Part shown: positions 1 to 61,975 of the stretch, in pieces
Position numbering within the stretch: position 1 is the stretch's first letter
Layout of the letters: each line of letters begins with the position of its first letter
DNA from: a virus
Virus record (IMG/VR): IMGVR_UViG_3300025065_000001
Span: 1 to 64,000 of that record
Reading direction: 5' to 3' (one strand)
DNA length: 64,000 nt
Notes under the pieces: model-generated
Database searches by the model: none
What the model was told of the DNA's origin: nothing
The model's input: only the letters and a program-made list of their open reading frames with translations
Program-made: the position numbers and the translations under genes

Positions 1-646
1 AAGTCGGCGCTATATCTCCTTTGCGGGGGTCGCTGATTATTGGGAGGTCACGGTACTTACCCGACATTCGCGCTTTAATAGCGCTGGGCAAGGTTACTTC
101 TGGGTCATGCTCGACAATTTCAGCCAGCGTCACTGGACGACAGTTCTTAGGGGGGCGAACTTCAAAAGGTCGGCGGGTACCAAAAATAATCAGACGATCT
201 CTTCTCTGGGGTAACCAATGCTGAGATTGGACCGGACAAAAAACGTGAACGTAGTAATCCGGCAACTTTGTCATAGCCTCCATTACCAGAGGGAACGCTC
301 TCATTCCTGGCACATTTTCAACCACGTAAGCATCGGGCTTGCGAATGGCCAAGTGACGCAAAGCATGAAGGAATAAATCGTCACCCGTTCTTACACCGTG
401 AATATCACCTATCGTGGAATACTTGGTGCAAGGGTAGGTAAAAACCATCGCATCGCATTCTTCTTGATTTAACACGAGCTCTTCAGTCAAGTCGCACTGT
501 TGAACATGGTGGCCAATATTCTCGCGATACGTCTTAACCGCGTCGGTATCAATTTCAAAAGACTGGTTAATAGTTAATCCCGCATTTATCAGCCCAATAT
601 CCATCAGGCCAGCACCACAAAAATAACTGTTTACGTTTATTTGCAT
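1..646 (-). CDS. C5-cytosine DNA methyltransferase (Dcm family), 3' part beyond window
   Basis: The 5' 215 codons of a DNA (cytosine-5) methyltransferase; the C-terminus, with the target-recognition region, lies left of base 1. Family motifs are visible in order: motif I FCGAG at residues 9-13 (SAM binding), motif IV YPC at about 94-96 (catalytic Cys; the usual Pro-Cys pair), motif VI ENV at about 132-134, and motif VIII QRRDR at about 170-174. The start is the ATG within GGAAATTGACGATG, the repeated start signal of this genome. Members methylate cytosine within a short recognition site; in phages they usually protect DNA from host restriction. No cognate endonuclease is visible in the window, so it looks like an orphan enzyme. 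Family call is firm; specificity cannot be told. Confidence 0.93.
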   Translation of the reverse strand, partial: MQINVNSYFCGAGLMDIGLINAGLTINQSFEIDTDAVKTYRENIGHHVQQCDLTEELVLNQEECDAMVFTYPCTKYSTIGDIHGVRTGDDLFLHALRHLAIRKPDAYVVENVPGMRAFPLVMEAMTKLPDYYVHVFCPVQSQHWLPQRRDRLIIFGTRRPFEVRPPKNCRPVTLAEIVEHDPEVTLPSAIKARMSGKYRDLPIISDPRKGDIAPT

Positions 647-652
647 CGTCAA
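645..652 (-). repeat. Family entry: TTGACGAT start-site motif, about 35 copies
   Basis: This octamer, usually within GGAAATTGACGATG, marks gene starts throughout the window. Exact minus-strand copies begin (left edge) at 645, 1598, 2040, 2709, 3408, 3701, 3849, 5724, 6220, 7118, 8947, 9388, 12720, 29763, 47482, 51003, 51800, 55930, 56589, 61051 and 61950. One-base variants lie at 4863, 7627 and 52340. Exact plus-strand copies begin at 12814, 14628, 16164, 17777, 22377, 23271, 23949, 29877, 31948, 44010 and 45443. In most, the motif's final AT is the start of the ATG and an AGGA/GGA ribosome binding site precedes it. At 2040, 12814, 31948, 44010, 45443 and 52340 it lies upstream of a separate ribosome binding site or start. 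Copies at 9388 and 29763 precede no gene. Confidence 0.95.
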
Positions 653-672
653 TTTCCAAATTTAAAAGTTAA

Positions 673-1599
673 TTACTCTTGTCTAAATAAATCAGAACCC
701 GACTTAACCGATCCCTTATGGCTGGCACTGTGCTCAAGACTTGGGGCCGGTTCAATCGGATCAAGTGACATTACCTCGGCCAGCGTATCGCTATTTTCTC
801 GAAGCCAATCCAAAAGAACCTCGCGTTTTCGAGCATCCGTTTGGGCTTTTGTCACACTCGGCGCCATTAAGATAGGTAAATCATCTACGTTAAGCTTTTC
901 TAATACGCTATTCGCTCTCGCTATACTCATAACGTGTCCCAGTGAGTTAGCAATAGCGCTACTACCGTCTTCTTCTAAAGAGCCGACCTTGAATTGCGGG
1001 GTAACACGGTATTCACCATCAGGAAGTAACCAACTGAACTCATCCCAAATTTCGAGGAACTGCTTATCTAGCAGAGCTACACGCTCATCGGTAGTTAACG
1101 CTCTGGCAGGTTGAGGCCCCGCTTCCTGAGGGTATTGCTTTGGTTCAGGACGACGTTTGTGAAAACTAATACCCTTACCGTTAATCACAAATATCTCACT
1201 ACGGACCATTGAAAGAATATCTGAATAAGGTTCGGCAAAATCATATCCGCTAAAGGCTACAGGTATCGCGTCCTTGTGTGCTTGGTGTGCATGGTAAACA
1301 TAGTAGCCCAGCTCAACATCCGCCTCGTTGGTGAATGCCGTAATGATTGCATTCGCGGTCTTAGGACAGGTGAGGGGGATTTTCGTAGAGAAACTATTTT
1401 GTGTTATTTCTTCCACGGCAATCAGTGTTTCGTAATTTTTAGTTGAAGCCGGTGTCTTCTTTTCGACTAACTTAAGGTGAACTTGCCTTTCCTCGTAATC
1501 CGTTAAGTTACTCATGGCGTCACCAAGTTTATCTTTATTCCATACAATCATTTGGGCCTGTACTACGGCACCGTTACCTAATTTCAAACCTTTTTTCAT
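673..1599 (-). CDS. Hypothetical phage protein, 308 aa
   Basis: Not recognised. The start is the ATG in the TTGACGATG signal, giving a protein beginning MKKGLKLGNG. It looks soluble: no membrane segment or signal peptide is evident, and the C-terminal 40 residues are polar and low complexity. The first 150 residues alternate short hydrophobic strands, suggesting an alpha/beta or beta-rich domain; a Pro-rich stretch around residues 160-175 separates it from a more helical second half. It follows a zinc-ribbon gene across a GGGGG/CCCCC hairpin and precedes the methyltransferase by about 26 bases, so it is probably co-transcribed with both. Its size and place in the early train suggest a DNA-metabolism or host-takeover role, but nothing in the sequence proves this. 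Confidence 0.75.
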   Translation of the reverse strand: MKKGLKLGNGAVVQAQMIVWNKDKLGDAMSNLTDYEERQVHLKLVEKKTPASTKNYETLIAVEEITQNSFSTKIPLTCPKTANAIITAFTNEADVELGYYVYHAHQAHKDAIPVAFSGYDFAEPYSDILSMVRSEIFVINGKGISFHKRRPEPKQYPQEAGPQPARALTTDERVALLDKQFLEIWDEFSWLLPDGEYRVTPQFKVGSLEEDGSSAIANSLGHVMSIARANSVLEKLNVDDLPILMAPSVTKAQTDARKREVLLDWLRENSDTLAEVMSLDPIEPAPSLEHSASHKGSVKSGSDLFRQE

Positions 1600-1625
1600 C
1601 GTCAATTTCCTAAGTTAATTTCAAA

Positions 1626-2710: not shown

Positions 2711-2924
2711 CGTCAATTTCCTCTCCAATTTTTCCCGCTTCTAGTAACTTGCGGTACTGCACTACGTTCTCAGGGTTATAGTCCATCAAACCAAAGGACT
2801 TCTCCCCCGTTTCTAAACAAAGGGCAGAGCCATAAACATTTAGGTTTATCGACTCAAGGTAAGTGATAACTTCAATAAGCGTCTTGTTTCTGGGACGCTT
2901 TATCTTCGGCGTGTCTTCACTCAT
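2703..2924 (-). CDS. Hypothetical protein, 73 aa
   Basis: Not recognised. Start chosen at the ATG forming an ATGA overlap with the stop of the upstream gene, so translation is coupled. The N-terminal 15 residues are basic (PKIKRPRNK); the rest is predicted helical and acidic, ending EEIDDE. It belongs to the continuous leftward train. Confidence 0.6.
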   Translation of the reverse strand: MSEDTPKIKRPRNKTLIEVITYLESINLNVYGSALCLETGEKSFGLMDYNPENVVQYRKLLEAGKIGEEIDDE

Positions 2925-3409
2925 ACGTCTACGGCCTCCGCCCAGGCTTTTTCGAACACCATAGAAGGGCAAGTATCATTACACCCTTGGTCATAGCGCC
3001 GAATAATCGCGTCTTCCTGAAAAATACAGTCTACAATTTCATACTGAAGATGCCTTGTTATATCGTGTATCAAAACACTCGGAACCATCTCACCATAAAA
3101 TTCACGTCTACACTCTACAGCCCGTATAATCTGACCCGAAGGACCATAATGCCGACCCGTGTTCCACTCCATACGGCGCATTTTTCTAGACTCATCCTTA
3201 GTCACTTCTTCAGGGTAACAAGACCACGACGTTTCACTCAGGCCAAAGCCTTGTTGTCGGTCAATTTCAGAAACCGGTAGGTCCGCCGCAACATGGTTAC
3301 CATACGCTTCAGCAACGTCATAATCGCTAGCCATCACATTAGGTAAAACAAGCTGTCGGCCCGTATCGCTCTCTTCGAGCACTATTTTGAATTCTTTTAA
3401 GTCGCTCAT
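2921..3409 (-). CDS. Hypothetical protein, 162 aa
   Basis: Not recognised. Begins at the ATG of the start signal (MSDLKEFKIV). It is soluble and acidic, with mixed alpha/beta character and several Cys residues in the second half (CRREF, CIFQ, CNDTC) but no regular Cys-x-x-Cys pair. Stop and next start overlap as ATGA, placing it upstream in a coupled pair with the 73-aa gene. Confidence 0.65.
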   Translation of the reverse strand: MSDLKEFKIVLEESDTGRQLVLPNVMASDYDVAEAYGNHVAADLPVSEIDRQQGFGLSETSWSCYPEEVTKDESRKMRRMEWNTGRHYGPSGQIIRAVECRREFYGEMVPSVLIHDITRHLQYEIVDCIFQEDAIIRRYDQGCNDTCPSMVFEKAWAEAVDV

Positions 3410-3444
3410 CGTCAATTTCCTTCTAGTTAATTACCGGACGTTTT

Positions 3445-3702
3445 TTAAAGATACTTTTGTAAAACCAGAGCGTCTTCGGGTGTTAATACTTGGCAACTAA
3501 TCACCGAATAATAAAATTCCCAGTTCATATCTGAAATTCCCCCCTCCACCCACTCAGCGGTACCATCTTCTAAACTACCGTGACACTCACCGAGAAGCGC
3601 CAAAGCACAGGCTTCATTCTCTGATTCAGCGTGTCGTAAAGTAGTCGCACTTTTTTCGTACTCACCCGACCTAATTTTTAATTTCACCGCATAAAATTTC
3701 AT
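3445..3702 (-). CDS. Hypothetical protein, 85 aa
   Basis: Not recognised. The true start is the ATG in the repeated signal (MKFYAVKLKI), not the longer upstream frame. The protein begins with a beta strand and then a KSATTLRHAES segment and a helix with Ala/Leu. The layout recalls small phage proteins of the type in which a strand-rich N-terminus packs on one helix. It overlaps the upstream zinc-ribbon gene by 32 bases. Confidence 0.6.
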   Translation of the reverse strand: MKFYAVKLKIRSGEYEKSATTLRHAESENEACALALLGECHGSLEDGTAEWVEGGISDMNWEFYYSVISCQVLTPEDALVLQKYL

Positions 3703-3850
3703 CGTCAATTTCCTTAAAGTTACAATAAACTGGCCCTTCATCAGGGGCCATAAAGTCAATTTCTGGGTAGGTAGCAAACTCGCAGTGCTCAACCGTTTTG
3801 TACCCCTCACCTAGCATGGTGCCACCACACTTTTTGCACACTTGGCGCAT
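3671..3850 (-). CDS. Small Cys-pair (zinc-ribbon-like) protein
   Basis: 59-aa protein starting at an ATG in the variant signal GGTTGACGATG. It opens MRQVCKKCGGTM, a Cys-x-x-Cys-Gly-Gly knuckle typical of zinc ribbons, with further Cys at about 23, 43 and 54, so a second metal ligand pair is possible. A GGGGG/CCCCC hairpin lies just upstream, between it and the preceding gene. Function unknown. Confidence 0.65.
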   Translation of the reverse strand: MRQVCKKCGGTMLGEGYKTVEHCEFATYPEIDFMAPDEGPVYCNFKEIDDEILCGEIKN

Positions 3851-3867
3851 CGTCAACCTCCAAAAGA

Positions 3868-3887: not shown

Positions 3888-4376
3888 TTATTCTTCTTCC
3901 TGTTCCGCTTCCTCACGCTCCCAGCGTTTTAGTTCACGCTCTTTGAAGGCCAGCACATACTTCATGTACTTCAAGGTTTCCTTAGCCTCGGGCTCATCTT
4001 TGTGTAAGTGCTCAAACTCAAGGTCGGTTTCTGGTAGATAATCAGCGGCATGTTGATATCTTTCGTAAGCTTTACTTGCAAAAACCGAATAACCCAAATC
4101 CCCGATTTCGTGCAACAAGTCGTCGGCAATATCCTCAGCGGTTTCCGCCGCTCGGAAATAAGGCATATCCACATTCAAGTGTTTCTGAATTTTAGGGCTC
4201 ACCGCACCATAACCAACAACACAGGCCGGAGTGCCGCAAGTGTGAATGTCCACAGCTTGGTCTGCGGTATCCCTATCCAAATAGTAATCATCCATCCGAA
4301 AATCTAGGTCAGACGCAACCACTTGTTCCATGGTCTCGATTAATAGTCTTAGCAGGGGAAAATTATTAGTACTCAT
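3888..4376 (-). CDS. Hypothetical phage protein with CGTPAC motif, 162 aa
   Basis: Unnamed family. The start overlaps the stop of the RadC-like gene as ATGA, with GAGGTGA as ribosome binding site. The N-terminal half contains HTCGTPACVVGYGA (about residues 45-58), a Cys-rich motif I associate with a recurrent group of uncharacterised phage proteins; the middle has an acidic helix (AETAEDIADDLL), and the C-terminus is a long charged helix ending in Glu repeats, probably a coiled coil. Translational coupling to the JAB protein suggests the two are made together. Function unknown. Confidence 0.7.
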   Translation of the reverse strand: MSTNNFPLLRLLIETMEQVVASDLDFRMDDYYLDRDTADQAVDIHTCGTPACVVGYGAVSPKIQKHLNVDMPYFRAAETAEDIADDLLHEIGDLGYSVFASKAYERYQHAADYLPETDLEFEHLHKDEPEAKETLKYMKYVLAFKERELKRWEREEAEQEEE

Positions 4377-4861
4377 AAGTCACCTCGTTGAGCAAGAGAA
4401 ATAGTGGGACAGCCTTGGCCGTTGCCTACGATGATGTGATCGAGTAACGGCACATCGATAGCCGACAACGCCTGTTTAATATCTTGTGTCAAACGAATAT
4501 CGGCTTGGCTTGGCTCGGGATAACCCGAAGGATGGTTATGTGCAATTATCAACGCCGCAGCATTCAGCTCTAAAACACGACGAATAATCTCACGAGGGTA
4601 AACCGAGGCTGAGTTTATCGTGCCCTCAAACAGGATTTCACCGCTAATCAAACCATGCTGGGAATCTAGAAATAAGCAAAGAAAACGTTCGCGAGAACCC
4701 TCGCACAGCTGCAATGCACAATAGTCTTTACATGAGCCAGCGTCGGATATCTTAGAGCGGCCATAGAAGTCAGGCTGCTTCTCACGAATGATGTTTAGCG
4801 CTCGAGTGATAGCGCGTTTCTCGGTAGGGGTGTAAGGACCACAATCCGTTAATTTAGTCAT
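4373..4861 (-). CDS. RadC-family JAB/MPN domain protein
   Basis: 162-aa protein of the RadC (JAB, JAMM-fold) family. The metal-binding signature is complete: a Glu near residue 79, His-x-His in AHNHPSG at about 107-113, and Ser118/Asp121 in PSQAD. RadC proteins carry a zinc JAMM centre like eukaryotic deubiquitinases; despite the name no repair role is established, and they are frequent in phages, plasmids and islands, often near anti-restriction genes. The N-terminal helix-hairpin-helix part of full-length RadC is absent; only a short helical leader precedes the JAB domain. The start codon is the ATG three bases after a one-base variant of the start motif. Family call firm; substrate unknown. 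Confidence 0.92.
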   Translation of the reverse strand: MTKLTDCGPYTPTEKRAITRALNIIREKQPDFYGRSKISDAGSCKDYCALQLCEGSRERFLCLFLDSQHGLISGEILFEGTINSASVYPREIIRRVLELNAAALIIAHNHPSGYPEPSQADIRLTQDIKQALSAIDVPLLDHIIVGNGQGCPTISLAQRGDL

Positions 4862-4903
4862 AGTCGTCAATTTCCAATTTTTAAAAGTTAATTACCAAAT
4901 CAA

Positions 4904-5834: not shown

Positions 5835-6221
5835 CTATGCCGATTCTCGCGCCGCAGCGCCACCACGAGAAGACTTCTCGGTGAATTCGTCCTTACCTAG
5901 CACCTTCTCCATTGCACCCGCTGAGGATGCGATAGAGGCCGCGCATTCAACACCGCAGTTAAAGCCAAAATCGACCAGTTTTTCAACCACTGAAAAGTCC
6001 AGTTCGAGTTCGCGAGACAATGCTTGAGTACGACGGTACACTTCGCCAAGGTCGTCAGTACCCTTGAGTGCATCCGATTTTCGGTAGAGGCCAATGAGAC
6101 ATTCGATTTGCTTGGCTTTCATCTGCATGACGTATTCAGCAATCTCTCGCTGAGTTTGGCGCATGAGTTCGTGAGGGGAGGGAGCAGTCTGGTTCACAGG
6201 CTGGGGAATGGAATTAGTCAT
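5835..6221 (-). CDS. Hypothetical helical protein, 128 aa
   Basis: Not recognised. First gene of the leftward train after a strong promoter. Start is an ATG two bases past the motif (GGAAATTGACGATATG), so motif and start are in slightly different register from most copies. The N-terminal 20 residues are Pro/Gln rich; the remainder is predicted to be almost all helix, with heptad-like spacing from about 22 to 75 and a Gly/Ala-rich C-terminus. It may form a coiled-coil oligomer. Role unknown. Confidence 0.7.
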   Translation of the reverse strand: MTNSIPQPVNQTAPSPHELMRQTQREIAEYVMQMKAKQIECLIGLYRKSDALKGTDDLGEVYRRTQALSRELELDFSVVEKLVDFGFNCGVECAASIASSAGAMEKVLGKDEFTEKSSRGGAAARESA

Positions 6222-6810
6222 ATCGTCAATTTCCTAAGTTAATTAATCGGCTCACGCCGTAACACCCCGTAGGGCGGATTTCAGTTATACAAGGGCAAAA
6301 TACCCGAGTCAATTGCAATGGTCTAATTTCGACCAAAAACACAATTTGGGTGTGATTCACTCCCACGGTGGTTTGTTGCACGTTGCGACAGTGAGCACCA
6401 CAAGCGAATTCAAATTCCAAGACGCGCAAAGGTTACAGCTCGTCACGCAAAGGTCGTTGGGTAGATCACTGCGACTTGCAGCAAGTCACAAGGAGTAACG
6501 AGGACATTGTGTGTAAATAAACCTCAGGTACGAATTAAATCGAAAGCGAAGTTTTTAAAAGTATACTTCTTAAAAAATGTTCCCAGTAAAATATATAAAT
6601 GTACATTTAATAACGAAAGTTTGTGGGAACATTTTTGTCACCGGCTCTGTAGGCCTTATTCTACACGGCATTGCGAGTAATAATTACCCTCACCGAAGTT
6701 ACGCGTAACTGGTCAAAATTCGCACAGCTACAGGCCGCATTCTACCGTTTTGAGAAATCGCAAAAATGGCTGAGAAAGTTTATGGGAACACAAAACCTAA
6801 GTTATTGTAT
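6222..6810. other. 589-base non-coding region with promoter and 16-bp repeats
   Basis: No convincing gene: short open frames on both strands lack ribosome binding sites and read as low-quality sequence. It holds a leftward promoter (6284-6312) and two of three direct copies of the repeat AAAGTTTRTGGGAACA (6616-6631 and 6775-6790; the third, 6870-6885, is inside the next gene), plus an inverted half-site TGTTCCC at 6578-6584. An AT-rich stretch spans about 6530-6640. This looks like the control region of the left-arm early operon. Confidence 0.6.
6284..6312 (-). promoter_or_regulatory. Sigma70-type leftward promoter
   Basis: On the minus strand: -35 TTGACT (6312-6307), a 17-base spacer, and -10 TATAAC (6289-6284). 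Both boxes match five of six consensus bases and the spacing is ideal. Transcription would begin near 6277 and run into the gene starting at 6221 and the train of small genes beyond it. Confidence 0.7.
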
Positions 6811-6885
6811 CTAGGCACTTAAGTTGGGCTTGTGTGTGACTTTTGAGGGTTCTACACCAGTTTCGCCAAAAAGTTTATGGGAACA
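6616..6885 (+). repeat. Three direct repeats AAAGTTTRTGGGAACA
   Basis: Copies at 6616-6631, 6775-6790 and 6870-6885 agree at 15 or 16 of 16 bases, spaced 159 and 95 bases. The GGGAACA end is the same heptamer found in the arms of the GGGGG/CCCCC hairpins. The pattern suggests operator sites for a repressor or activator of the leftward promoter; no binding protein is known. Confidence 0.7.
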
Positions 6886-7119
6886 GGTGTTAACTGGCTC
6901 TGGAATGTCCGTTTGCGCCAGTCTAATTGCTGTGCTCATTTCGCAAATCAACAACATTTGGTGATGCTTTGCTACGTGTTCTGGGTCTAAATTGCCCAGC
7001 TCCATGACTCTCACACCCTTCAATTCTAGCGTGCCAATCTCGTATTGTAGCTTGCCATATTGGAGGACAACCACTGGCTTAGGCCAGCCAAAACCTATCG
7101 AAACGTTCTTAAATTTCAT
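6811..7119 (-). CDS. Hypothetical protein, 102 aa
   Basis: Not recognised. Starts at the ATG of the repeated signal (MKFKNVSIGF). The first half is beta-rich; a DPEHVAKHHQM segment and a helix follow, and the C-terminal 25 residues are polar. One of the AAAGTTTRTGGGAACA repeats lies within its 3' part, so the gene overlaps control sequence. Confidence 0.6.
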   Translation of the reverse strand: MKFKNVSIGFGWPKPVVVLQYGKLQYEIGTLELKGVRVMELGNLDPEHVAKHHQMLLICEMSTAIRLAQTDIPEPVNTCSHKLFGETGVEPSKVTHKPNLSA

Positions 7120-7151
7120 CGTCAATTTCCTGTAAAAATGTGCTCAAAAGA

Positions 7152-8945: not shown

Positions 8946-8977
8946 AATCGTCAATCCTTAAAAGTTAATTTGTTGGT

Positions 8978-8994: not shown

Positions 8995-9033
8995 TCGAAG
9001 TAAGTAATGCGCTACTTGCCTCGAGTTGCATTC

Positions 9034-9063
9034 ACTATATAAGGGGGGGTGGATTTTATGCAA
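9034..9063 (-). promoter_or_regulatory. Leftward promoter of the 238-aa gene
   Basis: Minus strand -35 TTGCAT (9063-9058), an 18-base spacer containing a C-run, and -10 TATAGT (9039-9034). Transcription would start near 9027, giving an 80-base leader that contains hairpin copy 8 and the start motif. Confidence 0.55.
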
Positions 9064-9268
9064 GAAAACGGGGTGATATAGTGGGGTGGCCCTCTCACTC
9101 CACCTGAAAAATTTTTGGAATTTTGGAAGGTTATAGATACTACCCTCGACCCTAAACCCGAGACCCAAGACCCAAGAACCTCAACCCCTTCACCCAAGAA
9201 ACTAGAAACTTTACCCAAGAACCTAGACCCAAAAGTAAACCTTAGGAACAAAAAGCGAGTAGTAAAAG

Positions 9269-9299
9269 AAAACCCCGAGGGTTGGGCCACTCGGGGTTT
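9269..9299 (-). terminator. GC-rich hairpin, probable terminator
   Basis: Stem AAACCCCGAG / CTCGGGGTTT around a 10-base loop, with a short run of A/T on both sides. It may end a transcript crossing the orphan TTGACGAT motif at 9388. The U-tract is short, so it could be a regulatory hairpin instead. Confidence 0.5.
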
Positions 9300-14615: not shown

Positions 14616-14633
14616 CAATTTGGGAAATTGACG

Positions 14634-52427: not shown

Positions 52428-55400
52428 TTATGCAACGTTAGTAGTAACGACAAACAATTTATTATTAAGTAAGTTGATAAGTCGGTTTTGAATTTCTGGA
52501 TGTAATTTAGAAATATATGGATGTAATTCAGAAACTTGCGGAGACCCAGCCAAAGCTTGAAATACATAGGCTTTCAAATTTCCTGGCACTTCTTCAAGAC
52601 CTGTGAACATCGTACTGTGGGAGAGCTCTTTAGCCCTTCTCACATCCTCAACCCAGCGATTAAAACGTTCATCATCTAAATAATATTTATAAACTGAACG
52701 GACACCTACACGTTTCTTTTCTCTACGATATTTCATACCAAACGAAGTAAGAACGCGGCGAACGAACTCATGACGCTTCTTGTCGGTATCACATAAAGGC
52801 ATGCGGATACCTTGAAGGATTTCTAAATCCCTTGCATGGGCTAATAGAAAATCAAAAGCGCGGTCTTTTTCTAAATCCGTTATTTCACGGCCATCGTAGG
52901 TGGGGATATCATTTAGAAATATCACACCTAAATGGTAGAAGAAGCCACGGCCCAAGCCTTGGTGATCTGCAAACGCCGTTTTATCTTTATCGTGTCGCTT
53001 AGTATCAAAGCGGTTAATCATATCGATAAGGAACAGGTCGTCATTGTTAGCACCCAGCATCAAACCCTTGCGTCTACCATTGAGAGCCTGTGTTGACATA
53101 GTAACTACATCGTTCAGTTCATCCCCAGCCTCGAGGCCAAAGAGTCGCGCTTGGCGTTTCTTAAGTAGCTGGCGTTGTTCCTCTGCGTTTTTCAAAGTCT
53201 GGTTATCTAAAATTTCAAATTCTTCGTCCGTTAACAGCTCAGTATCCCTAAGCTTTTGTTTTTCAACTTCTCGAATCTGATCTGTTAGTTCATCCATCAA
53301 CATTTTCAAATTGTAGCCCTCATCCGAGGCCAGCGTATAAAGCGTGTTAATGTTGTAACCTTCATTTTCTAAAGCGTTTATCAAATTTTTAGAAAAGTGA
53401 TTGAGTTTATTATTTTCAAAACTCTTAAGTTGGCCATACCAGTCTGACCAACCATGGTCGTTTATTTTCAAACGTTCTGTTGCATAATCATATTCAGAAA
53501 TAAACTGCACGCAGAGTTTGTTATCTATAGTGTTACGGTTCCCGTATATCTCTTTTTGAACGATTTCTAAAGGCGCGGTTGGATAACGTCTCGCGTTATC
53601 GAGGTACATAACATGGTAGTCGGTACATTCACGAACGCGGCTCATATGCTGCAAACAATCCGAAGGTAAATTACCCGCCATCTTTGTGAAAAACGCGAAC
53701 GTCTTTTTAAAACGCGCTCCGGCTGCGGTAGCATCGATGGAGTGACCGGTACCCATAGAAGGTGAAGACATAAAAATATCATCGTCTCTCAGATTGCCAT
53801 TCAAGTCTCGAATAAAGGCTTGTACTTCTGGGGTCTGGGAATTGTTACTCGTTATTGTGATAACGCGACGACCATTAATCTCCGTCATGAAGTGTTCGTG
53901 CTCTAGCTGGCTATCTCCACCCATTTCCTCAATAATTGTGGCCGCTTTCTTAAGTACGTCCACTTTAGAATTTGAAGCATAGAATAGGCCTGTAGTCTTG
54001 GCCTCACACATCAAAGCTTCTACGAACGCTGAAGTATCCCCTTTACCATCGGTATCTTGGTACAGCGTCACTTGGCGCTGTTGCTCCTTTGCGGGACGGT
54101 ACTTATTAACGATAACGTTAATCGTGCGGTCTTCAGGAAGGATACCAAATTGCGGGTCTCTCATTAGGTCCACGAACTCTTTGTTTAAGTCAGCATCCAT
54201 ACAGATTACGAACTTGGCCCCAGCGATAATCTCACGTAAGACTTTTAAACATGCGGCCGGTTTATCAACGGTTGTTGCTTTAATCGCACGCACAAGCTGA
54301 CAAACCTCATCCATGATCACAATGTCGTAGTTCTGACCTTGCAGCTTGTATATCGAGTTAAGACAAATACCTAAGCGCTTCTGCATACGTAACGAGTGCA
54401 GCCGTTCGCTTTCGATTTCGTTATAGTCTGCAAGATTGAACTGCTTAGAGAGTGAGTTAACCAACGAGATTAGCTGGCTGATAGCGATAACTCGACCATC
54501 AAAGTCTTGTACTTGTTGCTTCAACATATAAGTCTTACCGGTACCTTTCTCACTTTTTACCAGTGTAATACCTGGTCGTAGTCGTAGCTCCGGTAGATAG
54601 CGTTGGTCTATTACCATAGCTTTATTATCAAATTCTTCCAGTCTAGATTCGGTGGCCTCGGTCTTACTCATAAAGGTTTCAATAGACTCACGCAGCTCAA
54701 AGTTTCGCTCCCCCTCCACAAACGAGTGAATCGTAGGATTGTAGTCACCGTAGCGGCCAGCGTTAGCGTAGAACTTGGCTTTTGAATAACCTTTCTCAGG
54801 GCGTAGTGGGTCTTGTAACTGAGCGCCATCATAAAGCGTTGGATTTAAGAACGCTTCAAGCACACTGGTAATACGACCATCTTCAAACTCAAGAATATCG
54901 GCAGGGTGAAGTATTTTGTTCTCATGTGCCTTAACAATCTTCATGGCCTCGTCACGAGAAAGCGGCATCTGAGTATAATGTGTCGTGTTCACCATTCGCT
55001 GAACTTTGATTTCTCTGAATTCAGAGACACGGTTTATAACATCCTCAGATTGCTTTTCCAGCTCAACCACACGACGGAATTCTTTATCTTGGGTTGGGGT
55101 GTAGTCTTTGAGTAGTGTGGTTTTTAACGAGCGCTTACCTCTTCGGTTAATCTCACCTTTTGGTAACTTCTGGTAGAACGATTCTTTTAGTTTGATGAAG
55201 GCACCGGCTTCGAAACATAGACGTTCAGGCTGGAAAACCGAGGTATCAAAAATCGTTCTTGGTAGTCGTCCACCGCTAGCACTTACTTTAATGTGGCCTA
55301 ACCCAGCCATCCAGCAGCGCTTCTCAAGCATTTTACCAAACCGAGCAATATCTTCCCCTTTATCAACGAGCATATAAATGTGGAAGCCATCCGCAGGGCG

Positions 55401-55931
55401 AATTACTTTATTGGTTTCTTTGTCAAACAATGACGTTGAAGTACTGTAAGTTCTGATATAGTCCGTGTTGTTTAGTTCTAATTCTGGAACCGCACTATTC
55501 AGATGAGTTAGGAAATCTTCAGGATTGGTGATTTTTAGCTTAGCGTGCTCGTCTTTATCATAATCGAATAGGATTAGACTTGGACCTTTTGTGATCATAG
55601 ATTTCGAAGAACGTGTGCCATACACACCGGTTTCATCTACGTGCACTGGGTATTCATAGCCACGGCGCTCAAACTCGTTACTGGTTAGGACCTCTACAAA
55701 CTCGTGGTCCGTATCCATAACGCCAGGGGTAAAACACTGGTTAGGCTCTAAGCTTTTTATAAAATCGGGTAACTGTGAGAGTGTTAGCTGCACTCGTTTT
55801 GCTGTACCTGTCACCATCTTAGGTGCATCACTTACAATTTTACCATGCTCCATTCGTAGCTCTTTGGTGAGCACTCCGGTGGAGTTCGTAAAAAGTGTCA
55901 GGTAAAACGGTTGTTCTACTTGGTTAGCCAT
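52428..55931 (-). CDS. Primase-helicase (CyRepA1/herpes origin-binding-like)
   Basis: 1,167 aa. The N-terminal part (about 100-260) has AEP primase marks: LFDYDKDE (about 122, Asp-x-Asp), DGFHIYMLVD and ERLCFEAG. The central part (about 450-780) is a helicase: Walker A SEKGTGKT (about 460), Walker B IMDEVCQL, and motifs FMSSPSMGTGHS and QHMSRVRE. This matches the origin-binding, CyRepA1-type replication proteins of plasmids and phages. It probably primes and unwinds at the origin. With the P4-like protein at 9.7 kb the phage has two primase-helicase proteins. Confidence 0.85.
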   Translation of the reverse strand: MANQVEQPFYLTLFTNSTGVLTKELRMEHGKIVSDAPKMVTGTAKRVQLTLSQLPDFIKSLEPNQCFTPGVMDTDHEFVEVLTSNEFERRGYEYPVHVDETGVYGTRSSKSMITKGPSLILFDYDKDEHAKLKITNPEDFLTHLNSAVPELELNNTDYIRTYSTSTSLFDKETNKVIRPADGFHIYMLVDKGEDIARFGKMLEKRCWMAGLGHIKVSASGGRLPRTIFDTSVFQPERLCFEAGAFIKLKESFYQKLPKGEINRRGKRSLKTTLLKDYTPTQDKEFRRVVELEKQSEDVINRVSEFREIKVQRMVNTTHYTQMPLSRDEAMKIVKAHENKILHPADILEFEDGRITSVLEAFLNPTLYDGAQLQDPLRPEKGYSKAKFYANAGRYGDYNPTIHSFVEGERNFELRESIETFMSKTEATESRLEEFDNKAMVIDQRYLPELRLRPGITLVKSEKGTGKTYMLKQQVQDFDGRVIAISQLISLVNSLSKQFNLADYNEIESERLHSLRMQKRLGICLNSIYKLQGQNYDIVIMDEVCQLVRAIKATTVDKPAACLKVLREIIAGAKFVICMDADLNKEFVDLMRDPQFGILPEDRTINVIVNKYRPAKEQQRQVTLYQDTDGKGDTSAFVEALMCEAKTTGLFYASNSKVDVLKKAATIIEEMGGDSQLEHEHFMTEINGRRVITITSNNSQTPEVQAFIRDLNGNLRDDDIFMSSPSMGTGHSIDATAAGARFKKTFAFFTKMAGNLPSDCLQHMSRVRECTDYHVMYLDNARRYPTAPLEIVQKEIYGNRNTIDNKLCVQFISEYDYATERLKINDHGWSDWYGQLKSFENNKLNHFSKNLINALENEGYNINTLYTLASDEGYNLKMLMDELTDQIREVEKQKLRDTELLTDEEFEILDNQTLKNAEEQRQLLKKRQARLFGLEAGDELNDVVTMSTQALNGRRKGLMLGANNDDLFLIDMINRFDTKRHDKDKTAFADHQGLGRGFFYHLGVIFLNDIPTYDGREITDLEKDRAFDFLLAHARDLEILQGIRMPLCDTDKKRHEFVRRVLTSFGMKYRREKKRVGVRSVYKYYLDDERFNRWVEDVRRAKELSHSTMFTGLEEVPGNLKAYVFQALAGSPQVSELHPYISKLHPEIQNRLINLLNNKLFVVTTNVA

Positions 55932-55981
55932 CGTCAATTCAATCCAAATTGTAGCGGCCCTCTAAGTGAGGGCCGACTTCA

Positions 55982-56590
55982 TCAAAGTTTACTTAGGTCT
56001 GCAGGGGTGTAATCAACAGACTTAAGCACTTTGCCAGCAGCATAGCTTTTACCATCTTTATCGGTACTCTCTTTTTTGACCTTAACGGCCCAGAGCGCGG
56101 TACCTTCATTTTTATTTTTATTGGTAAGTTTTACAGGTTTTGCTTCAACACTAACACCCAAGGTGGTGTAGTGGTCGAGTGTCGCTTGCACGTTATCATC
56201 GTTACATAGCTTACTCATATTCGAGTGATGGACAATATCCCAAGCTTTTAGGATATCGAAGTTTATTTCTTCGGAAGCCGATAGAAGTGTTTCTATGATG
56301 TTTAGTTCCCAAGCAGGCATGTGATTTAGGGTATGGTAGGACTGAACATACTTACCAAACAACACATATAGACTATCTACAATAGCATCTATTTTATCTA
56401 CTCGGGTTTCTGCGCTGAAAAGCTCACGCATTTCCTCGCGGTAGAGGTCGAAGTGTAAGTTTAAAGATTCCGTGGTGAATCCAACATCAATAGGTAAGTC
56501 AAAAGCGGTTCTAAAATCTACAATATTCGCAAAGAACTTCTCGAAAATTTCAGCCGTTAAAAAGTTATATTTAATACCATGAAGTAGCAT
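55982..56590 (-). CDS. MazG-like NTP pyrophosphohydrolase
   Basis: 202 aa. Helices FHLDLYREEMRELFSA-type (about 48-62: HFDLYREEMRELFSA) and DKIDAIVDSLYVLFGKY carry the Glu-Glu and Glu/Asp pairs of the all-alpha MazG/phosphoribosyl-ATP pyrophosphohydrolase fold. The C-terminal GKVLKSVDYTPADLSKL resembles the same end in T7-like phage homologues. MazG enzymes hydrolyse NTPs or (p)ppGpp and can modulate host physiology. Start at the motif. Confidence 0.8.
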   Translation of the reverse strand: MLLHGIKYNFLTAEIFEKFFANIVDFRTAFDLPIDVGFTTESLNLHFDLYREEMRELFSAETRVDKIDAIVDSLYVLFGKYVQSYHTLNHMPAWELNIIETLLSASEEINFDILKAWDIVHHSNMSKLCNDDNVQATLDHYTTLGVSVEAKPVKLTNKNKNEGTALWAVKVKKESTDKDGKSYAAGKVLKSVDYTPADLSKL

Positions 56591-56679
56591 CGTCAATTTC
56601 CTTTAATTTTTAAGTATGAGACCAGCATTATAAAAAGTAATCAAGTGAGTTGCTGGCAAACTAACTGGATTTTTATTAA

Positions 56680-57753: not shown

Positions 57754-60626
57754 GCGGCCACCTCCACAGGAACTACAGGTTCGTGTCCCATTAGATAAGC
57801 AACAACATTATGTCGGTATTCCGTGGTGAGCTTAGTATCTTTCAGTTCCTTTGGAATATACCCTTCAAGCTCCGGTGCTTCGTCTAGTTCGACTTGACCG
57901 AACGGGGCCTTCGTTGGGTGATACGGCTCGAGCGTGCGACCAACTGAAACGGTACCATCTAGTTTCAGCCAGCTCACTAAGTCAGGGTGACTACACATCA
58001 CTTCGAGTATGCGTTGACCAAAATCAACAGCTTGGTCCCATCGTACACTAAATACTAATTCGTCGTGAATAGGCATTACGATATCTGCGTCCCATTTTGT
58101 ATCTGGGGCATTAATCTCGTGCCATAGTTTGAGCATCGAGCGCTTAGCTAACGTTGCACAACCACCTTGAATTTTAGCATTTACCGCTTGGTTCCCAGCT
58201 CGGCGTTGAATCTTCTTAGCGATAAACGCCCCGAACTGTGACAATACCGGATCGTTATACGCATCCCACTTGGCCGTGAAGTGATAGAACCAATCGTTGG
58301 TACCTTCGTATTTATAACGTCTGTGACCATCGAAGATATCAACGTAACCTTGTACTTCAATCTCGCGCTGGGTGTTTATTCTCCATTGCTCTGCAACAGG
58401 GAAGGTATCTCGATAGTTGTCGGTACCCGCCCACATTTCATCCGACGTCCAACCTAGCTTATCCTGTACCGTCATTAGAGAGCCCGAGTACCAGTAACCG
58501 AAGTTAGAAGGTTTACCGGCTGAACCACGCCACCATTTAGCCACTTCATAAGGTTCAAGCGCTGCGTTTTTAACTGGGTCAATAAGCACTCGAGAGTACT
58601 GCAGTTTGAACGCTTCTAATTCTTGGCCCTCGAGGTTCTTAATACTAGCCAACATACCCGAAGTAAAATCAGGGTAGAAAACCTTGATTGCTGAGGTTGC
58701 CGCGCCTAAATGCAAATCATCATAAGGTATCTGGCCATAAGCCTTCTGGAAGTTAGGGTCTTTACTTAACTCCCCAATCAACACAAGTTCTACCTGAGAC
58801 CAATCCACAGCAACCAATAAATGGTCGTCACGATGTGGTAAGAAGAACCCCCGAATATAGGTAGATTCACCACGTTTACTTAGCTGCATCGGGTTAGGGT
58901 TCTCAGCGGCCATCCGGCGCGTGTTAAGTCGCGAACTAATAATCGGGTACATACGGTCTGTCTCAGGGTCCGTAAGTAGCAAATAGTTCGTGATATACAA
59001 CTTCATTCGCTGTTCTATCTGAGCCAGCTTATTAATTGCTGTTATTACTTGCTTAGCTGTCTCAGTCGGATACTGATCACAACACTGTTGCGCAAGAACT
59101 TGTAACGTTTCTTCCGGCAGCTCAGCTAACTGGCCATAGCGTTTCCATTCCTTAACCCAAAGCGCGGGGTCAGAGCCTAAACGTTCAGCAAACTCAATCA
59201 GCTTACCGCGTGCCTCGGCATCCGTTTTGATATCACCTTTGATATAAACGAACGGCAGATACAGTAAGTCGTGAAATAACGTGCGCTGTACCATGTAATG
59301 CGAGAAGTTACCGCGTAAGTCGAGTTCCTTCTTCTTGAGCTTGAACTTTTCTTCTTCCATCCAGGGTATTGAAACCGGTCCTGAGGTTAGCGTGGCAAAA
59401 TCGAAGTCTTCAACGGGGGCGTCGTGTACTTCGTGGGCTAACATAAAGTCCGCATAACCATCTTTTAGAAACAATATCTTGTCACGATAGCGCTGGTACG
59501 AAATACCTTCCTTTCCAACATACCATTTAGGTTGTTTCTGATAGAGACGCGGGGCAGGGGCCTCGGGGAACTCTAAGGTTTGAAGTAGTTCGCCTAGCTC
59601 TTTAATTACTTCGATGTAGTTGGAGCGTTCCGTTTCACGGCGGGAAAGAACCGCGTCTTTGTTAACCCGCCAACCTTTTACCCAGCAATCCGAGTAAACG
59701 TAACACATTGGGTTTTCTTGCTCGAAGAACGTGCGTAACACTTCAGGATTCGTGTTCTGCATGAATTGGCAAAGCCAATCGTAAAGACGTACACACCAGT
59801 AAGCATCGTCCGCACCGTAATGAAGGACTTCTTCACCGGTGAGTAACCCCATATGGGATTTACCCTGAAGCGCATCTTTAAATGACGTCTGCTTGTAGCC
59901 AAAGATACGTTCTGTGATCTGCTTTAGGTTGTACCCGTAGTTAATCGACTTCACATACCCATTGTAGCTATGGTCGGCCTTCGACTCTTTGGCCAATACC
60001 TTTTGCATAAGTTCTTGCTGAGCGGTATCTAACTTTCTAAAGTCTTGAACCCCCGCGAAGGTACGGCGTATTTGAGGGATAAGTTTCTTAATCCCTAGTA
60101 GGTCCGACTGGCGGAACACTTCAATATCATACTGGTCCGAATTATAGGCCGATACCGCCATTTGAAGCGTATCTACATAGTTCCAACCTAAGTCTATACC
60201 TAAGCTTTTAAAGCACATCGTCCGTTCAAAGGGATAGTTATGAATTATCTTCAACGGGTGATCTGCCATATATTGAACAAAGCTACGGATAATATCTGGC
60301 GGTATACGATTGTCTGCATCAGCGTGGGCGGCGTTTGCATAATAAACGGTAGTATCCCCTCGGATATACAGAGAAAAGCCCGTCACCGTTGTTCTGTTGA
60401 TATCAAAGACCAGCTTCTTAGGGTTGCGATAGTCCTCATCATCTTTGTTTAACTTCATGAATTGGTTCAGGCCTTCATGCCTGTCAGCATCATGGGTTTC
60501 AATATCGAAACCCACAGGCTGTCCCATCTGGTTAATTTTGGCTTTGATTTCCTCGAGAACATGGACATTACGAGCATCAACCAATTGCTCGACTAGTCCA
60601 GTTCTCTCGTTAATTTGCGAGTACAT
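57750..60626 (-). CDS. DNA polymerase I family A
   Basis: 958 aa. The exonuclease domain is present: FDIETH (40-45), NYPFERT and YGADDAYW (about 263-270). Polymerase motif A VAVDWSQVELV (Asp at about 607), motif B KPSNFGYWYS (about 704), and motif C VMPIHDELV (about 855) are in order. It replicates phage DNA. Oddities: motif A has DWSQVELV where most have DYSQIELR, so the conserved Arg is Val. Phe at the Pol I 762-equivalent position suggests dNTP selectivity against ddNTPs. A long insertion exists between exo and polymerase domains. Confidence 0.95.
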   Translation of the reverse strand: MYSQINERTGLVEQLVDARNVHVLEEIKAKINQMGQPVGFDIETHDADRHEGLNQFMKLNKDDEDYRNPKKLVFDINRTTVTGFSLYIRGDTTVYYANAAHADADNRIPPDIIRSFVQYMADHPLKIIHNYPFERTMCFKSLGIDLGWNYVDTLQMAVSAYNSDQYDIEVFRQSDLLGIKKLIPQIRRTFAGVQDFRKLDTAQQELMQKVLAKESKADHSYNGYVKSINYGYNLKQITERIFGYKQTSFKDALQGKSHMGLLTGEEVLHYGADDAYWCVRLYDWLCQFMQNTNPEVLRTFFEQENPMCYVYSDCWVKGWRVNKDAVLSRRETERSNYIEVIKELGELLQTLEFPEAPAPRLYQKQPKWYVGKEGISYQRYRDKILFLKDGYADFMLAHEVHDAPVEDFDFATLTSGPVSIPWMEEEKFKLKKKELDLRGNFSHYMVQRTLFHDLLYLPFVYIKGDIKTDAEARGKLIEFAERLGSDPALWVKEWKRYGQLAELPEETLQVLAQQCCDQYPTETAKQVITAINKLAQIEQRMKLYITNYLLLTDPETDRMYPIISSRLNTRRMAAENPNPMQLSKRGESTYIRGFFLPHRDDHLLVAVDWSQVELVLIGELSKDPNFQKAYGQIPYDDLHLGAATSAIKVFYPDFTSGMLASIKNLEGQELEAFKLQYSRVLIDPVKNAALEPYEVAKWWRGSAGKPSNFGYWYSGSLMTVQDKLGWTSDEMWAGTDNYRDTFPVAEQWRINTQREIEVQGYVDIFDGHRRYKYEGTNDWFYHFTAKWDAYNDPVLSQFGAFIAKKIQRRAGNQAVNAKIQGGCATLAKRSMLKLWHEINAPDTKWDADIVMPIHDELVFSVRWDQAVDFGQRILEVMCSHPDLVSWLKLDGTVSVGRTLEPYHPTKAPFGQVELDEAPELEGYIPKELKDTKLTTEYRHNVVAYLMGHEPVVPVEVAA

Positions 60627-61052
60627 TTACTGCCACTCTTGGTCTTCTTCTTCAGAAGACCTCACAGGTATAGCCGATTCATCAAACAACTTGCCTAACT
60701 CGGCCATAACGCGCTGTATGCCGCCTTCATTATGTTTTGCTGCAAAGTATGCGTCTTTAAGTGCAATAACTTGTTTGGGATTAAGATACCCTAGCTCGGC
60801 AAGAGCTATCTGCACCCCTTGGTCATGTAATTTAACGATTCGTCTTGATATCTCTTGGAATACTGAGTAGTTCTCTGAGGATATACTCGACTGCTCAATA
60901 ATATCTTTATTGAATTGGGTTTTTACCCTAACGGTATTTTCATAGTCTTTAGGTTCTACAACCAGAGGCCTACCAACTTCCGGCATTGGTGTACCTGAAC
61001 TTGCTTCTGGTAAAACTTCATCAACTTTTTGCATTGGTGGAACAAATGGCAT
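60627..61052 (-). CDS. Hypothetical protein, 141 aa
   Basis: Not recognised. N-terminal 40 residues are Pro-rich and probably disordered; then a helical region (about 55-130) with an SENYSVFQEISRRIVKLHDQG pattern; the C-terminus is acidic. It is directly upstream of the polymerase, whose ATG follows its stop at once, so it may be a polymerase accessory. Start at the motif. Confidence 0.6.
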   Translation of the reverse strand: MPFVPPMQKVDEVLPEASSGTPMPEVGRPLVVEPKDYENTVRVKTQFNKDIIEQSSISSENYSVFQEISRRIVKLHDQGVQIALAELGYLNPKQVIALKDAYFAAKHNEGGIQRVMAELGKLFDESAIPVRSSEEEDQEWQ

Positions 61053-61063
61053 CGTCAATCTCC

Positions 61064-61951
61064 TTACTCTTCGTTATTCAAATTAAACGCCGCTTTAAGG
61101 TCCAGCGCTAACGATAGAAGTGCACTGGCTCCGAGATAGATTTCTGAATCGAGACGCGCTTCCTGTTGGTCCTTAGGAATATCGTCGCTTTCTTCAATCA
61201 AGCGGTCTGAATACTTGATACGCTTAACAGAACCATCTTCACAGAGCATAGCGGTCAATTGGTCGTCATAACTGACAGCAAGTTTCTGAACGAGCTTGCC
61301 TGAGTCTAAACACAGTTGAATTTCTTCTGAGTCGAGTTCTTGATTTTTTGCACGGATAACCGCTTTGGTCTCATCTGTGGCTTGAAGCTCAGTCTCTTCG
61401 AGCAATTCAAATTTGTCAGGGTGGCCATTAACAATCCAGCTTGTTAGGTCTGAAGCGAGAGACCGTCTTGCGAATGGAACTACGGGTAAACTACCTAGCG
61501 CTTTACGAAGTACCGCAAGGAAGATTTCGGCCTCACCATCTGAAGAGGCATTCACTAACACTAGTTTATGCTCTGGGATGATTGTGCCAATAGTTGAGGT
61601 TTGGTCTGTGAACGCACGCGGCGTTAGGTGCGTAACTATTTCTTCTTTTAAGTCTTGACGCTGTTTTTTCCCAACCGGTGATCCCGTTTCCGCTTCAACA
61701 AGCTTAACTTTTTCTTCTAACTCACGGTTGATAACTCGCGCAGGGAGTATCTTGCTTTCTTTCAAAAGCTTAACCGTGTAAATACCTTGAACCTCATGAG
61801 CCAGTAAAGAACCAATGATAGGTGCAAAACCTAGAGAGGCTAGGGTATGTGAACCGCAAGGGTGGAAGGGGATTGCCTCTAGCGCTGGCACTAGGTTAGA
61901 CAAGTCTACATTTTGAGTGAGTGAATAAATCTTTGCGTTTTTAAAATACAT
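61064..61951 (-). CDS. rdgC: RdgC-like recombination-associated protein
   Basis: 295 aa, usual RdgC length. N-terminal YFKNAKIYSLTQNVDLSN, FHPCGSHTLASLGFAP, ILPARVINRELEEKV, and SLPVVPF are characteristic. RdgC forms a ring dimer around double-stranded DNA and limits RecA filament formation; chromosomal copies are found in many gammaproteobacteria. Phage copies may manage recombination during lysogeny or replication. Start at the motif. Confidence 0.88.
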   Translation of the reverse strand: MYFKNAKIYSLTQNVDLSNLVPALEAIPFHPCGSHTLASLGFAPIIGSLLAHEVQGIYTVKLLKESKILPARVINRELEEKVKLVEAETGSPVGKKQRQDLKEEIVTHLTPRAFTDQTSTIGTIIPEHKLVLVNASSDGEAEIFLAVLRKALGSLPVVPFARRSLASDLTSWIVNGHPDKFELLEETELQATDETKAVIRAKNQELDSEEIQLCLDSGKLVQKLAVSYDDQLTAMLCEDGSVKRIKYSDRLIEESDDIPKDQQEARLDSEIYLGASALLSLALDLKAAFNLNNEE

Positions 61952-61975
61952 CGTCAATTTCCTGTTTTTAGTTAG

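Follow-up and report, generated by a model that had tools for sequence, protein, structure and literature searches.

A repeated word at the gene starts of a marine phage

The window, which comprises the 64,000 nt at positions 1 to 64,000 of IMG/VR virus record IMGVR_UViG_3300025065_000001, contains 34 exact copies of the 8-mer TTGACGAT, 13 on the plus and 21 on the minus strand. In 100 dinucleotide-preserving shuffles of the window, the expected number was 2.01 ± 1.21 and the largest was 5, confirming a first-pass annotation that had counted 32 copies against about two expected. The word is also the commonest 8-mer of the whole 80.5-kb record, with 46 copies.

Thirty-one of the 34 window copies lie at gene starts in the sense orientation. 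The first-pass annotation had placed all but two copies at gene starts; this holds for the 31, while three copies lie elsewhere. Two of these are within genes (19226 and 35407), and the third, at 29763 on the minus strand, has no gene start, the downstream ORFs being merely 10 and 3 codons long. The distance from word to start remains short despite intergenic gaps of 130-590 nt upstream.

The sites adopt two layouts. In class 1 (26 of 31 sites), the ribosome binding site is followed by the word and then by the start codon (AGGAAATTGACGATG), with the ATG at +6, +8 or +9; at 9388, the TTG of the word is likely the start codon itself. In class 2 (2040, 12813, 31948, 44010, and 45443), the word lies 20-25 nt 5' of the start, and a distinct ribosome binding site stands in between. 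The sites are as follows.

645-652, minus: class 1, exact word copy, ATG at 646
1598-1605, minus: class 1, gene 673-1599
2040-2047, minus: class 2, gene 1825-2022
2709-2716, minus: class 1, gene 2291-2710
3408-3415, minus: class 1, gene 2921-3409
3701-3708, minus: class 1, gene 3445-3702
3849-3856, minus: class 1, gene 3671-3850, 17-bp helix
5724-5731, minus: class 1, start ATG at 5722
6222-6229, minus: class 1, gene 5835-6221
7118-7125, minus: class 1, gene 6811-7119
8947-8954, minus: class 1, gene 8229-8945
9388-9395, minus: class 1, gene 9012-9395, start probably the TTG of the site
12720-12727, minus: class 1, gene 12233-12721
12813-12820, plus: class 2, terminase large subunit 12834-14615
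14628-14635, plus: class 1, portal gene 14634-16094
16164-16171, plus: class 1, gene 16170-17336
17777-17784, plus: class 1, capsid gene 17783-18988, 18-bp helix
22377-22384, plus: class 1, gene 22383-23213, 19-bp helix
23271-23278, plus: class 1, gene 23277-23624
23949-23956, plus: class 1, tape measure gene 23955-29276
29877-29884, plus: class 1, minor tail gene 29883-30371
31948-31955, plus: class 2, gene 31968-36530
44010-44017, plus: class 2, gene 44032-44424
45443-45450, plus: class 2, gene 45466-45810 after the endolysin, uninterrupted 18-bp helix, predicted duplex -39.8 kcal/mol
47482-47489, minus: class 1, gene 47233-47481 upstream of the integrase, 18-bp helix
51003-51010, minus: class 1, gene 49979-51004 (metallophosphatase)
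51800-51807, minus: class 1, gene 51394-51801 (RecU-like)
55930-55937, minus: class 1, gene 52428-55931
56589-56596, minus: class 1, gene 55982-56590
61051-61058, minus: class 1, gene 60627-61052
61950-61957, minus: class 1, RdgC gene 61064-61951

No -10 hexamer was found 16-18 nt past TTGAC and no column 3' of the word is conserved, which speaks against a promoter, in line with the first-pass annotation. Two other readings of the word were rejected. A T7-epsilon-like leader or extended 16S pairing as the whole explanation conflicts with the class-2 layout and with words that change between relatives, and the TTG of TTGACG cannot be a regular start, being out of frame with the ATG in the relative G007 (TTGACGATATG).

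In the outer genome, the only genes opposing the prevailing direction are those at 73084-74166 of the 80.5-kb record, which include one for an HTH protein. Wherever an ortholog was identified, these genes are without the word.

A predicted small RNA contains the misplaced copy

On the opposite strand, the copy at 29763 forms the unpaired part of a small RNA with a predicted length of 81 nt. The gene of this RNA occupies the space separating 29276-29662 from the minor tail gene 29883-30371, on the same strand as the latter.

29700-29728, plus: predicted sigma70 promoter, TTGACA - 17 nt - TAATAT, 10 of 12 consensus matches
29733-29813, plus: predicted trans-acting small RNA, about 81 nt, same locus in five phage lineages
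29752-29779, plus: pairing region, GGCUCCUAAUUAUCGUCAAUUUCCAAAU
29781-29815, plus: predicted intrinsic terminator, 11-bp stem, CTGTTTTTGG

From its 5' end, the predicted RNA consists of a stem-loop, a single-stranded seed, a terminator hairpin, and a U tail. Its predicted fold has two stem-loops and leaves the core AUCGUCAAUUUCCAAAUC unpaired. In G014, and partly in KB12-38 and G007, much of the seed is predicted to pair with the 5' arm, so that the seed would have to open. The terminator stem shows no broken pairs and one double-sided change among five sequences drawn from the two close clades.

A comparable promoter occupies the same place in the other lineages, with a 17-nt spacer in each. 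Its -35/-10 elements are TTGACA/TAATCT in the G004 clade, TTGACT/TACTAT in KB12-38, and TTGACT/TAATAT in G014; the G007 promoter is weaker (TTGTCG/TTATCT). By prediction, the own promoter and intrinsic terminator that mark a trans-acting small RNA are present in all five lineages. A search of Rfam returned no family matching the RNA. We infer that a small RNA is made from 29733-29813.

Predicted pairing of the RNA with gene starts

The seed core AUCGUCAA is complementary to TTGACGAT. The 3' part of the seed, UUUCCAAAU, pairs with AUUUGGAAA of class 1, and the 5' part, CUCCUAAUU, pairs with AAUURGGAG of class 2, so that one RNA fits both geometries. At least 11 consecutive pairs with the RNA (up to 19) are possible at 36 of 94 gene starts, compared with 31 per 1000 coding stretches, and with 1.5 of 94 starts for shuffled RNA. 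The predicted helices span the ribosome binding site and, in most cases, include the start codon. Uninterrupted helices were used for these counts because the background of RNAduplex energies with internal loops was too high to discriminate. The mean unpaired probability is 0.53 in target start regions and 0.48 in the others; target starts are not more structured, and hence offer no inhibitory structure for the RNA to relieve.

When all 45-nt windows were scanned as mock RNAs, other high scorers were present. Those inspected were antisense to uncalled gene starts, two further G007 copies, or low-complexity sequences pairing through G-U. Any copy of the word on the wrong strand is complementary to the rest, and complementarity by itself thus proves nothing; the argument depends on how the locus is built, on the fit to either side of the word, on the pattern of wobble pairs, and on the test in G014.

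Matched changes of seed and word between lineages

Among close relatives, the word differs by lineage (TTGACGAT, TCGACGAT, TTGACAAT, and GGATTAACAAAC). In the G004/G005 clade, G replaces A in the seed, and T has changed to C at exactly the paired position in 14 of 25 orthologous target sites, while the other seven word positions together show 5 changes. In KB12-38, U replaces C in the seed, and the targets read TTGACA or TTGATA, some with G. G007 and KB12-38 have two bases missing from the seed and two from the words (GGATTGAC versus GGAAATTGAC). Across four lineages, single transitions in the target 8-mers retain the pair through G-U in 27 cases and break it in 2.

The fifth lineage, G014, was the single new one to emerge from further scans and served as a test case, being looked at once the predictions were on record. 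Its word, GGATTAACAAAC, stands at about 30 starts. The same locus reads ...AUGUUUGUUAAUCCUAAUGGUU..., the complement of the G014 word, between TTGACT-N17-TAATAT and a terminator. Under strict pairing (WC at least 9), the G014 RNA matches 30 of 103 of its own starts, versus 0-5 in other lineages.

The RNA and all its sites appear to have co-evolved at least three times, once through a complete change of word. The independent changes are few because there are only five lineages, two of which contain several near-identical genomes. A further-lineage search by seed pattern gave unrelated coding matches only, and a host search across 84,980 species genomes yielded only a distant Mesorhizobium prophage.

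The word is kept at orthologous, syntenic starts across phages whose proteins are 35-60% identical and whose flanking sequences diverge. Many sites follow each independent seed change.

A phage-encoded ProQ/FinO protein

Two further genes of the window bear on the system.

46031-47269, minus: tyrosine integrase, present in relatives
51827-52333, minus: ProQ/FinO-domain protein, 168 aa, candidate chaperone for the small RNA (Pfam PF04352, E 7e-13)

The integrase is evidence of a temperate phage. The leader of the ProQ/FinO gene itself has a near-match to the word, TTGACGAG. A PF04352 gene is found in the window phage, G001-G004, G007, KB12-38, and G014, G005 being excepted as a 65-kb fragment. 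It is absent from all nine relatives without the word, a co-occurrence that comes from one clade. We consider the protein the likely chaperone of the RNA.

According to the first-pass annotation, relatives that had the same genes and lacked the motif would refute its interpretation. Very distant relatives are indeed without the word; the RNA locus (where checked) and the ProQ gene are missing from them as well, and relatives without the RNA have no common word.

Proposed mechanism and alternative explanations

We consider it very probable that the word is a docking site on the phage mRNAs for a phage-encoded small RNA, whose pairing with the ribosome binding site would repress translation. The system is best read as FinOP-like antisense control extended to an entire phage genome, with translational repression as its most likely effect. 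An RNA-level translation signal was among the options of the first-pass annotation, whose interpretation is partly supported: this option gains support, and the misplaced copy as a small-RNA seed supplies a mechanism that it had not seen.

In the proposed mechanism, the seed AUCGUCAA, extended on both sides, would pair with the word, with the ribosome binding site next to it, and in most cases with the start codon. The ribosome landing site would thereby be covered and translation repressed, so that 30-45 genes of the head, tail, lysis, replication, and early classes would be repressed together. Genes lacking a leader would mostly follow by translational coupling, and the phage ProQ/FinO protein would act as the chaperone for pairing. 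The words, the RNA locus, its predicted promoter and terminator, the matched seed and word changes, and the ProQ co-occurrence can be read directly from the genomes. A covered landing site would point to repression of translation by the pairing, the purpose of which may be prophage silencing or a damping of lytic gene expression.

The RNA and its pairing could also be real with a positive or indirect effect, such as message stabilisation or activation, or the sites could act as a sponge, titrating an RNA whose target lies in the host. Small RNAs can activate, and many high-affinity sites would titrate a scarce RNA. We find these possibilities unlikely, as the ribosome binding site and usually the start codon would be covered at starts without extra structure, and a sponge would not need its sites confined to gene starts.

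A protein recognition site, either for an RNA translational repressor of the T4 RegA type or for a DNA repressor of the L5 stoperator type, appears distinctly improbable. Such sites are typically short, non-palindromic, and found at many starts in a single orientation, stoperators likewise vary by lineage, and the single misplaced copy, which would be an additional site (such as an operator preceding a terminator), is automatically complementary to the others. However, the tolerated variation tracks the ability to form G-U pairs with the locus of the same lineage (27 to 2), and in five lineages, one of which has an unrelated word, the misplaced copy is flanked by a predicted sigma70 promoter and a terminator. 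Moreover, the complementarity runs to both sides and fits two site layouts, and the position of the word with respect to start codon and ribosome binding site varies.

It is more improbable still that the word reflects a strong but ordinary ribosome binding site and its preferred spacer, or that it extends the pairing with 16S rRNA. Class 1 does keep GGA-8 nt-ATG, a workable Shine-Dalgarno spacing, but a distinct ribosome binding site follows the class-2 words, and the word differs among close relatives and has no common counterpart in those without the RNA. Between such hosts, the 3' end of the rRNA is nearly invariant. A recombination joint or cassette boundary travelling with genes, which the first-pass annotation had also offered, would explain why the word recurs at many gene borders, but it can be practically dismissed, since orthologous syntenic starts keep the word with differing leaders and the words change in concert within genomes.

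A role of the small RNA as an immunity factor seems plausible to us, if somewhat short of probable. Expressed in the prophage from a host-type promoter, the RNA would block the translation of almost every lytic gene, in the prophage as well as in related phages that enter the cell. Lack of the word at the 73084-74166 genes would be expected for genes that must remain on in the lysogen. If true, the system would be an RNA counterpart of stoperators, and distinct word/seed pairs would define immunity groups.

Comparison with known systems

FinOP of F-like plasmids and FopA/Inc of IncI plasmids (PMC9977716) likewise combine, on a mobile element, a FinO/ProQ-domain protein with a two-stem-loop RNA. 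In both, the RNA has a terminator tail and a seed over the element's own ribosome binding site (PMC9977716), as predicted here. The window phage shares with FinOP an element-encoded FinO/ProQ protein and a (here predicted) stem-loop/terminator/U-tail RNA complementary to a ribosome binding site of the element. FinP and Inc each act on one message (PMC9977716), whereas the RNA described here matches 30-45 starts spread over the genome. Unlike the FinOP RNA, it is not antisense to and overlapping a target gene, and its action, if any, would be in trans.

Antisense RNAs of phages that act on phage genes include the CI RNA of P4. Others are c4 of P1/P7, sar of P22, and OOP of lambda; c4 and sar each repress a single target by antisense pairing, with a role in lysogeny or immunity (PMC12197685). 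In all four, as proposed here, a phage small RNA pairs with phage messages, but each has one or a few targets. Previously known phage antisense RNAs mostly control one or a few genes. None of those reviewed shows a site repeated at the majority of independently started genes, or a cross-species co-change of seed and site (PMC12197685). Here, one RNA appears to address 30-45 starts of all gene classes in one virus, apparently with a chaperone of its own. If true, this would be a natural example of a single small RNA controlling a whole genome through target sites that the virus itself carries, and a model for the joint change of an RNA regulator and dozens of targets.

The stoperators of L5 and other cluster A mycobacteriophages are DNA sites for a repressor protein. 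They too are many one-way sites in short intergenic regions of temperate phages, with a sequence that shifts between relatives. The evidence here favours RNA pairing, and the G-U tolerance indirectly disfavours a DNA site. Stoperators have been contrasted with the Start-Associated Sequences (SAS) of cluster K mycobacteriophages (PMC3203893), a short asymmetric repeat over the ribosome binding site of 11-19 genes (PMC3203893, PMC12699233). The SAS consensus GGGATAGGAGCCC stands beside the start codons of non-structural genes only, whereas TTGACGAT is found at structural genes too.

For SAS and other start-associated phage repeats, our results suggest a hypothesis and a search for a single wrong-strand copy. 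We do not claim a small-RNA reading for SAS because Pixie and Keshu have no opposite-strand copy at the corresponding place. Such a copy does lie away from a gene start in 4 of 6 SAS genomes, and in Anaya, Angelica, SgtBeansprout, and Peanam it falls in a hairpin loop.

A repeated word at gene starts

The window carries 34 copies of the 8-mer TTGACGAT, hereafter the word (13 plus, 21 minus), where 2.01 are expected and the maximum in 100 shuffles is 5. In the full 80,544-bp phage record it is the top-ranked 8-mer, with 46 copies. Thirty-one of the 34 window copies lie at gene starts, two are intragenic, and one (29763, minus) is neither, bearing out the first-pass annotation of a genome-wide repeat at gene starts; starts were taken from a simple purpose-written caller, so counts of target genes are approximate. 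In the class 1 layout, GGA is followed by the word and then the start codon, with ATG at +6, +8 or +9. In class 2, the word stands 20-25 nt ahead of the start, and a distinct ribosome binding site lies in between.

2040, 12813, 31948, 44010, 45443: class 2 sites (window positions)

Where intergenic gaps are long, the word still adjoins the downstream gene start, and genes overlapping their upstream neighbour are mostly without it. No conserved column was found 3' of the word at the window sites. This rules out a -35 box and agrees with the earlier view that the word is not a promoter, no -10 box following it.

Many class 1 leaders also share AATTAACTTTTAAAATTTGG upstream of the word (for example at 655-680, 4870-4890, 8955-8975 and 47490-47510 of the window), with AATTAAACTAAAACTT as its counterpart in Pseudoalteromonas phage KB12-38 and the related phage G007. 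This element is similar to the T7 gene 10 translation enhancer and is partly complementary to the small RNA predicted below. Just 5' of the leader, early genes often carry a lineage-specific inverted repeat. In the window phage (3860-3885, 7950-7985, 8960-8990 and other early leaders) it resembles GGGGGGAACATTCCCCCC; the related phages G004 and G005 have TGGTGGGGA..TTCCCCACCA, and KB12-38 has GGTAACGTTACC. These repeats may be terminators, processing sites or operators.

Conservation of the word in related phages

The window phage, a siphovirus, shares 60% portal identity with KB12-38 and ~50% with Achromobacter phage JWF. A motif search in related phages upheld the repeat, the word being retained at orthologous starts, including those of proteins 35-60% identical, in a lineage-specific form and at a slightly shifted distance from the start codon. 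Genomes with portals 95-99% identical retain the word itself; in G004 and G005 (portals 86% identical) about half of the sites read TCGACGAT; sites in G007 (~60%) read GGATTGAYGAT-ATG, and those in KB12-38 GGATTGAYRAT-ATG. Two G007 copies, at 6780 (L153 6780) and 23504 (L154 ~3504), have no ATG directly behind them and may mark missed class 2 starts downstream or further RNA loci.

The misplaced copy lies within a predicted small RNA

The copy at 29763 falls in a gap between two genes with orthologs in the relatives. G007 and KB12-38 likewise have one copy at this locus, antisense to the late genes.

29276-29662: gene on one side of the gap
29733-29813 (plus): predicted small RNA of ~81 nt
29763 (minus): the misplaced copy of the word
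29883-30371: minor tail gene

On the late strand this copy reads ...ATCGTCAATTTCC..., or the form specific to the lineage. A predicted promoter, TTGACA-N17-TAATAT, stands before it in the window phage; an 11-bp hairpin and CTGTTTTTGG come after it. Comparable promoters are present in the other lineages, that of G007 being weaker. In its predicted fold, the window phage RNA has two stem-loops and leaves its seed, the complement of the word, unpaired. No Rfam family matched the locus, and the minus strand after the copy holds no ORF of more than 10 codons. A 61-codon frame that opens at a GTG inside the RNA and reads through the terminator has no ribosome binding site and is regarded as fortuitous.

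Allowing G-U in uninterrupted helices, the RNA can pair over at least 11 bp with 36 of 94 gene starts (longest 19), compared with 31/1000 for coding sequence and 1.5/94 for shuffled RNAs. Class 1 pairing joins UUUCCAAAU of the RNA to AUUUGGAAA, and class 2 pairing joins CUCCUAAUU to AAUURGGAG. At the site before 45466 the predicted helix runs for 18 bp without interruption (predicted duplex -39.8 kcal/mol).

Seed and word change together

Since a reversed copy is trivially complementary to its siblings, the test is how the two vary, here across five independent lineages. The G004/G005 seed, ATCGTCGA, has a G able to pair with both C and U, and sites in these phages mix TCG and TTG. This G was expected before the seed was read, the expectation being written down alongside the reading. 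The window clade has A in its seed, and TCG is essentially absent from its starts. Across 25 orthologous sites of the window phage and G004, 14 differ at the seed-variant position, and the other seven positions together show 5 differences. In KB12-38, a seed U lies opposite position 6, where sites have mostly A and sometimes G. The G007 and KB12-38 seeds lack two bases between the core and UCC, and their sites are shortened by the same amount (GGATTGAC versus GGAAATTGAC). Over four lineages, 27 single transitions in the 8-mer keep pairing through G-U and 2 break it.

We then turned to G014, an 84-kb genome not used earlier (portal 64% to KB12-38). Three predictions were put in writing before examination, the ProQ search running alongside the writing: that its starts share a word, that the RNA locus encodes an RNA matching this word, and that the genome has a ProQ gene. 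All three were borne out (ProQ, E 1.6e-12). The G014 word, GGATTAACAAAC, stands at ~30 starts and is unrelated to TTGACGAT. The gap before the minor tail ortholog reads TTGACT-N17-TAATAT, ...CAATGTTTGTTAATCCTAATGGTTAACCCAGTCC... and a terminator, and the longest helices that the RNA can form with G014 starts reach 23 pairs. In a strict swap of RNAs against the starts of five genomes (Watson-Crick, at least 9), the G014 RNA matched 30/103 starts in G014, with 1, 0, 5 and 0 matches in the remaining genomes. For the KB12-38 RNA, 21 starts matched in KB12-38 and 2, 1, 9 and 3 in the others; for the G004 RNA, 21 matched in G004 and 4 in the window phage. The exception is the G007 RNA, which has the same core as the window phage RNA and therefore fits window phage sites as well as its own.

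Proposed mechanism and the ProQ protein

Repression, with the RNA covering the ribosome landing site, would be the simplest reading, since the predicted helices take in the Shine-Dalgarno sequence and, in most cases, the start codon, and target starts are, without the RNA, slightly more open than other starts. Targets include head, tail, lysis, replication and early genes. The window phage encodes a tyrosine integrase, and its full record holds a two-gene operon with an HTH protein, a candidate lysogeny regulator; the word is missing from this operon and from all orthologs located in other genomes.

51827-52333 (window): ProQ/FinO-domain protein, candidate RNA chaperone
73084-74166 (full record; L139 11084-12166), plus, against the prevailing direction: HTH operon

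This range of targets, the word-free operon, the integrase and the host-type promoter before the RNA suggest that lytic genes may be silenced in the lysogen or against superinfection.

Every phage that has both the RNA and the word also has ProQ, G005 (a truncated record) excepted; of nine relatives without the word none has it, although two of the nine have an integrase. The gap at the RNA locus is absent in the distant relatives JWF, Seuss and EAb13. FinO-domain proteins bind terminator hairpins, and FinO and FopA assist an antisense RNA in blocking a ribosome binding site or replication gene (PMC9977716).

Comparison with known systems

By its parts the system resembles FinOP and the phage antisense RNAs c4 and sar (PMC12197685); unlike these, its RNA would act in trans and have dozens of repeated sites as targets. 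The nearest described pattern is the Start-Associated Sequences (SAS) of cluster K mycobacteriophages (PMC3203893), which are still unexplained (PMC12699233). In Anaya, Angelica, SgtBeansprout and Peanam, the single reversed SAS copy (complement CCUCCUAUCC) lies in the loop of a long, conserved hairpin whose stem shows paired changes across the four phages.

59845-59905 of record L199 (Mycobacterium phage Anaya); also in L200, L202 and L208: SAS hairpin

Hammy has CCCTCCTTCCC at this place. The hairpin may be another instance in which an RNA targets repeats at start sites; we make no claim for SAS, as the reversed copy and loop were not found at that place in Pixie and Keshu.

Two further observations concern gene content. 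Among the early genes of the window, 4373-4861 encodes a RadC-like JAB domain protein (Pfam E 4e-41). Record IMGVR_UViG_2895548450_000001 (G003) carries three integrase-family genes near one end, at 80.9-90.4 kb, which suggests that it includes another element or host DNA.
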